Positions 14,360 to 38,067 of a stretch of DNA of 38,502 bases are shown here, in pieces. The stretch lies in the NCBI GenBank assembly GCA_949398305.1, contig CASLVD010000011.1, positions 1 to 38,502 of the forward strand, in the 5' to 3' direction. This DNA is from an uncultured Candidatus Melainabacteria bacterium. GTDB lineage: Bacteria; Cyanobacteriota; Vampirovibrionia; Gastranaerophilales; Gastranaerophilaceae. The position numbers and the translations under genes were made by a program. The notes under the pieces were generated by a model. That model searched no databases. It was not told where the DNA came from and saw nothing but the letters and a program-made list of their open reading frames with translations. Within the stretch, counting starts at the first letter, position 1. Every line of letters begins with the position of its first letter.

Positions 14360-15424
14360 TTATTTCTTAAAATTTTCAATCAACCTGCTATACATATCTT
14401 CCAGACTGACTGACGGAGTCCAGCCGGTATCTAAATAGTATTTAGTAGTATCTAAATAGTATTTAGTAGTATCTAAATAGTATTTAGTAGTATCCGGATA
14501 CAACCTGTCATCAACATTTATTTTCAAATTCGAACTCGGGTATTTCTTACATAACATTTCTGCCATTTCTCGAATTGAACAGGTTGTATCCGGATTTGCA
14601 ATATTATAGACTTCTCCGTTATGTCCTATTTCTGACATCAGCAATAAAGCTATAACACAATCCGTCACATAACAATAACTTCTAACAGTTAACCCCGGTG
14701 TCTTTAATATAATATCTTTATTTTCGACAATATTTCTTGCAAACTGCGCAAAAACCCGATTATCATTATAATCCACACCTGAACCGATTATTTGAGACAG
14801 ACGTGCAATTTTTACCGGCACATCATACTGTGAAAAATACGCACAGCACATATTTTCGGCAAGCCTTTTACCAAGCGGATATGAATTTCTGACTTTCATT
14901 AAATCCATATATCCATAATCACTTTCTTTTAACGGTTCAACACGTTCTGTAGAGATATTTCCATAAACCTCCATTGAAGAAAGATATATAACACTTTTTA
15001 CAGCTTTATCTTTTGCGAATTCCAGAATATTTTTTGTTCCGATAACAATAGTATCAATAGTTTCAACAGGATTTTCAACGAAACCTTTTGATGCTGTACC
15101 ATTTGCTGTGTGTATTATAAAATCAACGGCAGGACAATTTATTTTTTCTGTTATATCCTGAAATATAAAATGCAAGTTAGGTGTTATTTTATCCGCAAAT
15201 TTTTTTATAGTCTTTTCTTTGTTTCTTGCCAGTGCATATATCGTAATATTTAAATCATACTTTTCATTTGCCAGAAGCAGTGCAGTTATAATTTGAAAAG
15301 CAATCATGCCGGTTGCTCCGGTTATTAAAATTGAAGAATTTTTATAAAAATCCCAATTTATACACTTTGAATTAAGAATTTCAAAACTATCATTTTTTTC
15401 AATTTCATTTAAAAATTTTATCAT
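14360..15424 (-). CDS. NAD(P)-dependent SDR epimerase/dehydratase of a CDP-alditol-type locus
   Basis: 354 residues, extended SDR. The Rossmann motif is ITGATGMIA (residues 34-42; the usual third Gly is Ala42). The catalytic set is Ser149/150 (IYLSSMEVYG), Tyr182 and Lys186 (SYPLGK). A family-like C-terminal phrase GWTPSVSLED is at 334-343. Just before it, residues 311-331 are three exact copies of DTTKYYL, where one would be expected. The gene overlaps the cytidylyltransferase gene by 4 bp. The pair recalls the two halves of Haemophilus Bcs1 (IspD-like plus SDR), which makes CDP-ribitol, but the true product is not shown by sequence. Confidence 0.85.
   Translation of the reverse strand: MIKFLNEIEKNDSFEILNSKCINWDFYKNSSILITGATGMIAFQIITALLLANEKYDLNITIYALARNKEKTIKKFADKITPNLHFIFQDITEKINCPAVDFIIHTANGTASKGFVENPVETIDTIVIGTKNILEFAKDKAVKSVIYLSSMEVYGNISTERVEPLKESDYGYMDLMKVRNSYPLGKRLAENMCCAYFSQYDVPVKIARLSQIIGSGVDYNDNRVFAQFARNIVENKDIILKTPGLTVRSYCYVTDCVIALLLMSEIGHNGEVYNIANPDTTCSIREMAEMLCKKYPSSNLKINVDDRLYPDTTKYYLDTTKYYLDTTKYYLDTGWTPSVSLEDMYSRLIENFKK
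14428..14490 (-). repeat. Perfect 3 x 21-bp tandem repeat inside the SDR gene
   Basis: Units at 14428-14448, 14449-14469 and 14470-14490 are identical (TATCTAAATAGTATTTAGTA plus G). The period is a multiple of three, so copy number can change without a frameshift. Each unit adds DTTKYYL just before the conserved GWTP. Confidence 0.97.
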
Positions 15425-20145: not shown

Positions 20146-20162
20146 ATAAAAAAGGAGGTTAT

Positions 20163-20909
20163 ATGGAAAATAAACAAATAGATTCCCTCCCCACCGGTGG
20201 GGGAGGGGTAGGGAGAGGGGGAGAGAAGCTCGCCTTCACTTTAGCTGAGATTTTAATCACTTTAGGAATAATCGGAATTGTAGCAGCACTTACTATTCCG
20301 GGACTTATAACAGCGCACAGGAAAAAAGTTATTGAAACCAGACTGGCAAAATTCTATTCAACAATGAATCAGGCAATAAAGTTAGCAGAATATGACTACG
20401 ATGACAGAACTGGTTGGGATGAACTTGGAAAAGGTTTTATTCAAGACGAAGATGGTAACGACACAAAGGAAACCGTTGCCATAAGTTGGGTACAAAAATA
20501 TCTTTTACCATATATAAAATCAGATGTTAAAGCAACAGACAAATACGGAAAAGTACAGTTACATTTTCAAGATGGCAGCATGGTTACCTTATCTTCTTCA
20601 TCCTGGATTTTTTACCCCGATGCAACAAAATATCATGAAACAGAAGATAAGGGATTTAATCAACAAGAAGCTACAGGGAAATATGCTTTTACTTTTTTGT
20701 ACGCACCGACTTGTACAAACAAAGAAAAATGTAAATACGTAGGTGACGGAGTAGAACCATATAAATATGGTTGGGATGGCACAAAAGAACGATTACTATA
20801 CGATGAACATTTTGGCTGTGCTAAAGAAAATGTTATACGAGCATACTGCACCGAGTTAATTAAACAAAACGGATGGAAAATACCAAGCAATTATCCAATA
20901 AAGCTTTAA
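20163..20909 (+). CDS. Type IV pilin/pseudopilin-like protein with a repeat-derived leader
   Basis: 248 residues. The prepilin core is KLA-FTLAEILITLGIIGIVAALTIPGLI: cleavage would be after Ala24, Phe25 becomes residue +1 and Glu29 is the conserved +5 Glu. Ala instead of Gly at -1 is shared with the second pilin at 37351. The leader is unusually long because residues 8-21 (SLPTGGGGVGRGGE) are encoded by a GC-rich palindromic element. The C-terminal domain (about 60-248) contains four paired-looking Cys and ends in NGWKIPSNYP. AAGGAGG is ideally placed. Prepilins are cleaved by PilD and act in pili, secretion or DNA uptake. Confidence 0.88.
   Translation: MENKQIDSLPTGGGGVGRGGEKLAFTLAEILITLGIIGIVAALTIPGLITAHRKKVIETRLAKFYSTMNQAIKLAEYDYDDRTGWDELGKGFIQDEDGNDTKETVAISWVQKYLLPYIKSDVKATDKYGKVQLHFQDGSMVTLSSSSWIFYPDATKYHETEDKGFNQQEATGKYAFTFLYAPTCTNKEKCKYVGDGVEPYKYGWDGTKERLLYDEHFGCAKENVIRAYCTELIKQNGWKIPSNYPIKL
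20185..20220 (+). repeat. GC-rich palindromic element inserted in frame in a prepilin leader
   Basis: CCCTCCCCACCGG is followed by CCGGTGGGGGAGGG-like sequence, giving an almost perfect hairpin (one bulged G), and then TAGGGAGAGGGGG. It is by far the most GC-rich stretch in the window. It lies within the coding region, between the start codon and the conserved KLAFTLAE. Confidence 0.75.
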
Positions 20910-21929: not shown

Positions 21930-22580
21930 ATGCTTAAAATTTTAGAATCTGCAACTACAAAATCAGGTAATAAAATAGAATTAATCGGGACACCTGGAAA
22001 AGGAAAAGTTTTAATTATCGGTGTTTTTCACGGCGATGAACCTCAAGGAAAATATTTAATTGAAAAATATATACAAAACCATTCATGTCAATCAAGAGGA
22101 AAATTACTTTTTATTCCTTGCCTAAACCCTGACGGGCTTTTGAAAAACACAAGATGCAACGCAAACGGTGTTGATTTGAACCGAAATTTCCCGACAAAAA
22201 ACTGGGGGGTAAATAAAGGAGACAATGCGACTTGCGATGATGAAACCACTGCATACTACGGCGGGAAATCCCCTGCAAGTGAAACTGAAACAAAATTTGT
22301 CATAGATGTTATAGAAAAATACCAGCCGGTTCTTATTTTAACACTTCACGCGCCATACAAAGTTGTAAATTATGACGGACCTGCAGAAGATATTGCACAA
22401 AAAATTTCAGATATAATCAATTATCCGGTTGAAGCAAGTATCGGATACCCGACACCGGGAAGCTTCGGAACTTATTGCGGAGTAGAAAGAAATATTCCGA
22501 CCATAACACTTGAGCTTGATGAAGAAATCCCTGTAGAAGAACTGGTTGAACCGGTATTTGAAATTTTTGATATGTTTTAA
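21930..22580 (+). CDS. M14-family zinc carboxypeptidase, murein peptide amidase (MpaA)-like
   Basis: 216 residues, short as in MpaA-type enzymes. Zinc ligands are His34 and Glu37 (GVFHGDEPQGK) and His140 (LTLHAP). VDLNRNFP (81-88) supplies the substrate-binding Asn/Arg, and the catalytic Glu is Glu195 in TITLELDEE. MpaA splits the gamma-D-Glu-meso-DAP bond of recycled murein peptides in the cytoplasm. There is no signal peptide, which fits. GGGGAG precedes the ATG. Other small-substrate M14 enzymes are possible. Confidence 0.85.
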   Translation: MLKILESATTKSGNKIELIGTPGKGKVLIIGVFHGDEPQGKYLIEKYIQNHSCQSRGKLLFIPCLNPDGLLKNTRCNANGVDLNRNFPTKNWGVNKGDNATCDDETTAYYGGKSPASETETKFVIDVIEKYQPVLILTLHAPYKVVNYDGPAEDIAQKISDIINYPVEASIGYPTPGSFGTYCGVERNIPTITLELDEEIPVEELVEPVFEIFDMF

Positions 22581-37350: not shown

Positions 37351-38067
37351 TTATTTATATTTTATTTTACGTCTCCAAACTTTGTCCGGGATTTTCCAAT
37401 CATTTTCAATAACTTTATTAAGGCAGAAATAAGCACTTCCATTATAACAATTATTATCAATTTCAGCTTTACTTTTTGAATATCCTGCCGGCACCAAACC
37501 TTTTTCTGTCCATGCCATAACAAAAACGTCTTTGCCTAACACATTAGGTTTCGTTTTACCATTTGCATCAAAAAAGAAAACAAGTCCGCTTTCATCAGTA
37601 TCAATCCCGAACAGACTCATCATGTGTTCTGCCAAATACCCGTCCAACATAAAAGATGAACCCTTAACGATATTGAAACTTATAATACCACTTCCAATAC
37701 CTTCTGAATCTCCGACTTTAGAGCCTCCAAGATTATAAATTTGATGCCAGCACCCTTTTGGAACCCTGTCAACACATACCTGTCCAACTTTCATGTGCTT
37801 GGCTAAAAAGTTATCAAACCATTCTTTTAAAAATTTACTGTTTCCATCTGCTACCGTACTGTAAGAAATATCTTCATCTTCCGCATAGCGTAAAGTTTGC
37901 TGAATAGTTGAATATGTTGCTTTTATTTGAGTTTCAAGCTGCTTTTTTTGATAATTTGAGATAAGCACCGGTATTGTAATCGCCGCAACTACCCCAATGA
38001 TGCCGAGGGTAATGAGAACCTCGGCTAATGTAAATGCAAGTTTGAAGTTACATTTTTGATTTTTCAT
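37351..38067 (-). CDS. Type IV pilin/pseudopilin-like protein
   Basis: 238 residues. The 11-residue leader MKNQKCNFKLA is followed by FTLAEVLITLGIIGVVAAITIP: Phe12 is +1 and Glu16 is the +5 Glu, with Ala at -1. The C-terminal domain has about four Cys (QVCVDRVPKGCWH, NNCYNGSAYFC) and closes in NDWKIPDK. It is a paralogue of the prepilin at 20163, which has the same core, the same NxWKIP end but a longer leader. AAGGAAAATAGT precedes the ATG. The neighbouring divergent XRE gene starts 90 bp away and may regulate it, as at the other pilin gene. Confidence 0.88.
   Translation of the reverse strand: MKNQKCNFKLAFTLAEVLITLGIIGVVAAITIPVLISNYQKKQLETQIKATYSTIQQTLRYAEDEDISYSTVADGNSKFLKEWFDNFLAKHMKVGQVCVDRVPKGCWHQIYNLGGSKVGDSEGIGSGIISFNIVKGSSFMLDGYLAEHMMSLFGIDTDESGLVFFFDANGKTKPNVLGKDVFVMAWTEKGLVPAGYSKSKAEIDNNCYNGSAYFCLNKVIENDWKIPDKVWRRKIKYK

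Follow-up and report, generated by a model that had tools for sequence, protein, structure and literature searches.

A boxC/TM-type palindromic repeat in a prepilin leader of a Candidatus Melainabacteria genome and its likely link to DUF559 genes

Background

Repeats of the boxC/PIT/TM family are small, GC-rich and widespread in bacteria, where they have been linked to genome instability; their presence in E. coli, cyanobacteria and numerous other genomes has been known for decades, with their mobility left unexplained. As described by Holder et al. 2015 (PMC4666352), the E. coli form, TMECO (formerly boxC or PIT), measures 34-37 nt (e.g., CCCTCGCCCCTTTGGGGAGAGGGTTAGGGTGAGGGG), is found in 23 copies in MG1655, always in intergenic positions, and is present in more than 260 genomes; CD and NMR on E. 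coli oligonucleotides revealed an intrastrand triplex in vitro. The same authors state that they themselves found no mobility genes beside TM, and work cited in their paper (PMC4666352) attributes neither promoter nor terminator activity to PIT/boxC in E. coli. Short palindromic repeats also occur in frame in unrelated protein genes, i.e., the RPE of Rickettsia (about 100-150 bp; PMC3767692) and the WPE of Wolbachia, while in REP/RAYT systems palindromes with a GTAG foot flank a small gene for a Y1 HUH transposase and are accompanied by many orphan palindromes.

Results and Discussion

The prepilin leader contains a 36-nt element of boxC/PIT/TM design

The window, i.e., the whole stretch of 38,502 nucleotides that was analyzed, comes from a genome of 1.92 Mb in 109 contigs (G000, hereafter the own genome; other G numbers denote relatives in the same genus). 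It contains a prepilin gene with the following features:

20154..20158, + strand: Shine-Dalgarno-like GGAGG, upstream of the prepilin ATG
20163..20909, + strand: prepilin gene, 248 aa, with the processing motif FTLAEILITLGIIG and a body matching Pfam DUF6613
20163..20234, + strand: prepilin leader of 24 residues, with cleavage before F25 predicted from the class III signal motif
20185..20220, + strand: boxC/TM-type palindromic element, CCCTCCCCACCGGTGGGGGAGGGGTAGGGAGAGGGG, read in frame as (S)LPTGGGGVGRG(G); its consensus matches E. coli TM sequences (PMC4666352)
20185..20192, + strand: arm a, CCCTCCCC
20200..20207, + strand: arm a', GGGGAGGG, which pairs with arm a
20211..20220, + strand: third arm, GGGAGAGGGG, equivalent to the third triplex strand in published TM

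The reading frame begins MENKQIDSLPTGGGGVGRGGEKLA^FTLAEILITLGIIG (^, predicted cleavage), and the ATG at 20163 is supported by the GGAGG at 20154-20158; no other in-frame start was present between the element and FTLAE. Judging from the FTLAE processing motif, the leader would be removed by prepilin peptidase. The initial annotation had proposed that a palindromic, GC-rich element codes for part of this leader, and residues 8-21 (SLPTGGGGVGRGGE) were confirmed as the part concerned; its description of a paralogue with an 11-residue leader without the element also held (MKNQKCNFKLA; about 37351-38067, minus strand). GC-rich in AT-rich surroundings and placed 22 nt past the start codon, the element codes for most of the 24-residue leader, the leader bases beyond 20220, up to 20234, being outside the repeat.

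In a text search of open-licence literature for the DNA string of the element, a single paper, that of Holder et al. 2015 (PMC4666352), contained the boxC sequence as a motif under study. Compared with Table 1 of that paper, our copies showed the same design of about 34-37 nt (36 nt here) with three arms, CCCTC(G/T)CCC...GGGAGAGGG-NNN-GGGTGAGGG, in the order arm, loop, arm', TTA/CCG and third arm, and near-identical letters (CCCTCGCCCCTTTGGGGAGAGGGTTAGGGTGAGGGG in E. coli vs. CCCTCGCCCCTTGnGGGAGAGGGnTAGGGTGAGGGG here). As in E. coli, many copies are dispersed in each genome, some of them as inverted pairs. In layout, length and letters, the window element is thus a boxC/PIT/TM repeat; its third arm is recognized here from the sequence, and the triplex itself was seen with E. 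coli oligonucleotides. Unlike TMECO, the family described here has many protein-coding copies, favors prepilin leaders and bounds DUF559 genes with pairs of palindromes. Several copies depart from the intergenic location by lying in frame inside genes, this location being a property reported for one genome (MG1655) rather than a structural definition. Both the protein-coding boxC copies, with prepilin leaders as their preferred place, and the DUF559 genes bounded by inverted boxC-type palindromes are new.

The two best other copies in the own genome had E values of 4e-6 and 5e-5. A covariance model (R1) was built from the nine clearest copies of the own genome, window copy included, plus one sister copy, and these ten training copies align to the consensus CCCTCGCCCCTTGnGGGAGAGGGnTAGGGTGAGGGG. 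The model recovered the window copy, itself one of the training sequences, at E = 2.3e-9. Within the window, no second match of the 22-nt core of the element was found (0 expected in shuffles), and no Rfam family matched around the element at the gathering threshold. The RNA fold of the element region reached -31.7 kcal/mol (z = -2.4). As a bare 36-nt DNA strand, the hairpin alone did not outperform composition-matched shuffles (z = -0.65), and the reality of the element therefore rests on its recurrence and not on folding energy. A G-quadruplex was also considered, as the G-rich part fits the motif, and was set aside in favor of the triplex that the published NMR on E. coli oligonucleotides indicates.

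Copies are dispersed in the genus and lie in frame in unrelated genes

About 12 copies of the element were found in the own genome, and 41 of 46 genomes of the genus contained it, with 0 to 66 copies per genome. The family is dispersed both in the genome and in the genus, and copies differed between relatives. Many unrelated genes contained in-frame copies, with the element in either orientation and read in several frames. In the own genome, these include a second prepilin (C63:7504), an ABC ATPase and Mfd (C7:42193, a TIGR00580 match; ...DFILDALAPSGRGEGRGGYKIIIATDYPER). The Mfd of G005 has the element at a different place, so that each of the two Mfd genes is the other's empty site, being filled where the other is not. 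In relatives, in-frame copies were found in AlaRS (G014), LeuRS (G044), hydroxylamine reductase (G005), CoaBC (at one common site in G018 and G027) and FolC (in G021 and G022; G034 shows a weak match at another site). Stop codons occur in two of the six consensus frames, and the window copy, like that in the own Mfd, uses one of these two. In the third arm of the window copy GGGAGA replaces the consensus GGGTGA, which removes the in-frame TGA, and the Mfd copy has lost this TGA by the same replacement.

The initial annotation had likened the element to Rickettsia-like palindromic elements. The likeness stands for behavior, as both RPE and WPE are short palindromic repeats in frame in unrelated protein genes, and fails for family, as RPE are repeats of about 100-150 bp with other sequences, specific to Rickettsia and Wolbachia, whereas the element has a conserved core of only 36 nt, belongs to boxC/PIT/TM by sequence and occurs in many phyla. 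In-frame copies thus extend the idea of "selfish DNA in proteins" from Rickettsia past the Rickettsiales.

In the genus, the nearest and only close homologue of the window pilin, G039:C3:124602, is 66% identical to it; this homologue starts with MKKA^FTLAEVLITLG, i.e., with a plain 4-residue leader without the element, and no R1 match reached the threshold in the G039 genome. As the neighboring genes of this homologue differ from those of the window pilin, orthology is judged from sequence similarity only. In-frame copies elsewhere in the genome, for which the initial annotation had proposed to look, are present in the prepilin at C63:7504 and in Mfd, and with its dispersed copies and a homologue that lacks it, the element is neither unique nor conserved as leader in all orthologues.

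Prepilin leaders are a preferred place of the repeat

The own genome encodes about 110 prepilin N-termini. Besides the window prepilin, that at C63:7504 contains the element in a leader read in a different frame (MKKHTVSDKYNESKYNHLLTYLLTPKYPRSLRERDRERGKKAG^FTLAE), and the leader of a third prepilin (C21) contains a sister form. Copies reading openly into FTLAE numbered 3 of 12 in the own genome, 14 of 40 in G005 and 21 of 44 in G014. The expected number in the own genome is 0.06 of 12, open leader frames representing about 0.5% of the genome; at a generous 450 nt per pilin, expectations are 0.3 in the own genome and, with pilin numbers of 210 and 105 that are first-look candidates, 1.7 in G005 and 1.0 in G014. 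These counts represent non-independent events, as paralogues share leaders, most clearly in G014, and P values for leaders overstate independence because duplication or leader exchange partly relates the copies within a genome. Prepilin leaders nevertheless hold far more than their share of copies. Leader copies occupy three sense frames and both orientations (nine of those in G005 are inverted); it therefore appears that an open frame, and not a particular peptide, is kept.

One could propose that recombination or gene conversion between the approximately 110 pilin paralogues, and not new insertion, is the main way in which the repeat spreads among leaders. Many leaders of G014 are alike beyond the element (TTLLQDYLIPRPWWERG...), contigs often end at such leaders, and contig C61 of the own genome and G045 have one leader in common, all of which would fit this proposal. 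Against it, the copies in the window (contig C11) and in C63 differ in frame and flanks, both orientations occur, and copies are also found in unrelated genes; we consider recombination somewhat unlikely as the main route.

DUF559 genes are bounded by inverted palindromes

In relatives, a DUF559 (PF04480) domain turned out to lie between the two members of three strong element pairs. Strong matches to this domain were present in 34 of the 46 genus genomes, and GC-rich palindromes of boxC design stood beside DUF559 in nearly all of 30 loci, usually on both sides and inverted; R1 matches adjoin DUF559 genes. For a model-free assessment, the two flanks of each locus were aligned to one another, the right one as its reverse complement (cut-off score, 15), with segments 400 nt further out as controls. 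Inverted flanks reached the cut-off in 48 of 63 DUF559 loci as compared to 1 of 56 outer segments. By sample, the numbers were 22/28 vs. 1/26 in the genus, 16/21 vs. 0/16 in a phylum-wide sample that was selected independently of the pattern but has most of its loci from the own family, and 10/14 vs. 0/14 in ten distant genomes selected for holding the palindrome pattern (Desulfocapsaceae, Geobacteraceae, Magnetospirillum, Gemmataceae, Parvularcula, Omnitrophota and Syntrophaceae). Control segments at RAYT loci (1/16) and pilin loci (0/20) rarely or never did so. Paired palindromes were often near identical within a locus and different between loci. Moreover, genomes with strong DUF559 matches had a mean of 13.2 R1 copies as compared to 3.3 in the others (P = 0.0004, Mann-Whitney test, uncorrected for phylogeny). 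A PD-(D/E)XK-like site, D...E-x-D (alignment positions D86, E97 and D99), was invariant in 40 DUF559 proteins. The one strong DUF559 match of the own genome has a variant palindrome (CCTCCCCAATGGGGGAGG) on its flanks, in place of exact window-element copies.

Flanking pairs were seen in two orientations, with the third arms pointing either towards the nuclease gene (mostly in intergenic loci) or outwards (in MpaA and PriA). In at least six relatives, a boxC-DUF559-boxC cassette is translated in frame within an MpaA-like amidase, between ...FHGDEPQGKYLIEKY and LLFIPCLNPDG..., and in other genomes of the family a cassette lies in frame in PriA, directly before the motif LLHGVTASGKTEVY. Pfam recognized no splicing domain in the amidase cassettes. 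The window contains the uninterrupted counterpart of the amidase gene:

21930..22580, + strand: MpaA-like M14 amidase gene, uninterrupted; the same gene holds the cassette in relatives
22071..22100, + strand: empty site matching the cassette position, IQNHSCQSRG between EKY and KLLFIPC

As inverted palindromes bound DUF559 genes and whole cassettes lie in frame in PriA and the MpaA-like amidase, DUF559 is the likely mobilizer; flanks and cassettes suggest that it spreads the boxC family. This link, consistent across several phyla, provides a specific and testable mobility candidate, and among the open-licence publications that mention DUF559, no title or abstract linked it to repeats. The control genomes in which DUF559 was matched do not include E. 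coli, which has 23 boxC copies (PMC4666352), and the repeat can therefore persist without DUF559.

The arrangement resembles REP/RAYT in combining a small nuclease-type gene, flanking palindromes and many orphan palindromes, and differs in that the nuclease is DUF559 (PD-(D/E)XK, Vsr-like) and not a Y1 HUH transposase, and in that the GTAG foot is absent. With homing endonuclease genes, inteins and the ShiLan-type in-frame phage insertion (PMC11855218), it shares a nuclease cassette in frame at a recurrent site of a conserved host gene (MpaA, PriA); it differs in that boxC palindromes bound the cassettes, orphan palindromes occur elsewhere and the amidase cassettes have no splicing domain that Pfam recognizes.

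Alternatively, boxC palindromes could be the insertion targets of DUF559 cassettes and not their termini or products, as a cassette within two palindromes could come from insertion into a palindrome and many boxC copies stand without DUF559. We judge this rather unlikely, given that the flanking pairs are inverted and that only 14% of partner-swapped flanks reach the cut-off as compared to 22/28 with their own partners. Furthermore, the MpaA-like gene in the window already looks like a palindrome-free empty site, although it belongs to a species other than the cassette carriers.

A model for the leader copy and remaining explanations

The explanation that we favor, and regard as probable, is that the leader element is a boxC-type repeat moved by DUF559, now or formerly, and tolerated since the leader is cut off. 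The copy would be a non-autonomous boxC/TM-type palindromic repeat that inserted into the leader, or arrived by recombination with another leader, and would persist because prepilin peptidase cuts the leader off, an open frame being the sole requirement. DUF559 may nick or cut the palindrome or its targets, with repair or replication then copying the repeat; short copies would derive from the boxC-DUF559-boxC cassette in the way that REPs derive from RAYT loci. The leader peptide need not have any specific role, its presence presumably being neutral, and any effect of the hairpin on pilin translation would be secondary. More tentatively, and with slightly more doubt than belief, we suggest that DUF559 (Vsr-like) nucleases drive a widespread class of minimal mobile elements, of which boxC/TM palindromes in general are the termini and orphan derivatives; these elements would insert in frame into protein genes without splicing and find a safe haven in cleaved prepilin leaders. 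As seen from the in-frame copies, essential enzymes (Mfd, PriA, aminoacyl-tRNA synthetases) and leaders of secreted proteins can accommodate a structure-forming DNA repeat.

Selection of the leader hairpin for control of pilin translation or mRNA stability seems improbable. Its place shortly after the start codon and the RNA fold reported above would suit such a role, while most other prepilins of the own genome, and the nearest homologue, have no such hairpin, and the E. coli work cited in PMC4666352 points to neither promoter nor terminator activity.

Mobilization of the element as a REP by RAYT is highly improbable, even though RAYT-like genes (PF01797) occur in 21 of 46 genus genomes and an R1 copy was present within about 1.5 kb in 4 of 20 RAYT loci (two of these at the same locus). 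The RAYT genes (L247-L259) are surrounded by a palindrome of their own, GTAGGTTGGGCATACTTGCCCAAC, with the classical GTAG foot, and RAYT was rejected as boxC mobilizer on these grounds; in the 20 loci, no boxC copy adjoined a RAYT gene, the only Y1 match of the own genome is interrupted by a stop, and the window element is not a GTAG-foot hairpin flanking a Y1 gene. A true RAYT/REP pair, with the palindrome GTAGGTTGGGCATACTTGCCCAAC, coexists with the boxC family in the genus.

Long leaders exist among type IVb prepilins, but an ancestral functional peptide that is GC-rich by chance is practically untenable here, as the sequence is a near-identical dispersed repeat, is missing in the nearest homologue and is read in different frames in different genes.

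Other features of prepilin leaders and repeat copies

The pilin expansion is unusually large, with about 110 prepilin genes in the 1.9 Mb of the own genome and more than 120 first-look candidates in each of G001, G005 and G039. In approximately 20 prepilin genes of the own genome (e.g., L086, L140, L047 and L137), 8-11 consecutive G follow the start codon at a distance of a few codons; only two genes (10 G) are in frame with FTLAE, and 14 (9 G) are one base off, which looks like phase variation of a pilin family by slipped-strand mispairing within the leader. In many own leaders (e.g., L106, L123, L134, L112 and L113), two FTLAE copies enclose a repeated insert, FTLAEGATHVAMPPV...PTPAEEGFTLAEVLITLG, an arrangement that would fit the insertion of an element at the FTLAE codons with target duplication. 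Other dispersed repeats (GATTCCGGCTCGGAGGCCGGAATGAC-type palindromes and CHSEGEARKNPAD... coding repeats) are strung in frame in L116, L138 and L152 of the own genome and in leaders of G005 and G014, and leaders thus seem to collect several repeat families. In L215, L236 and L241 (G014) and L226 and L234 (G005), more repeats are nested within the boxC palindrome of the leader, with the frame kept open.

Some copies (C5:33846, C28:790, C44:15574 and C3:12922 in the own genome; L166 and L268) end right before a start codon, where GAGGGG could act as a Shine-Dalgarno site. Elsewhere in the window (14427-14494), a 21-nt unit, GTATCTAAATAGTATTTAGTA, is present in three exact tandem copies.
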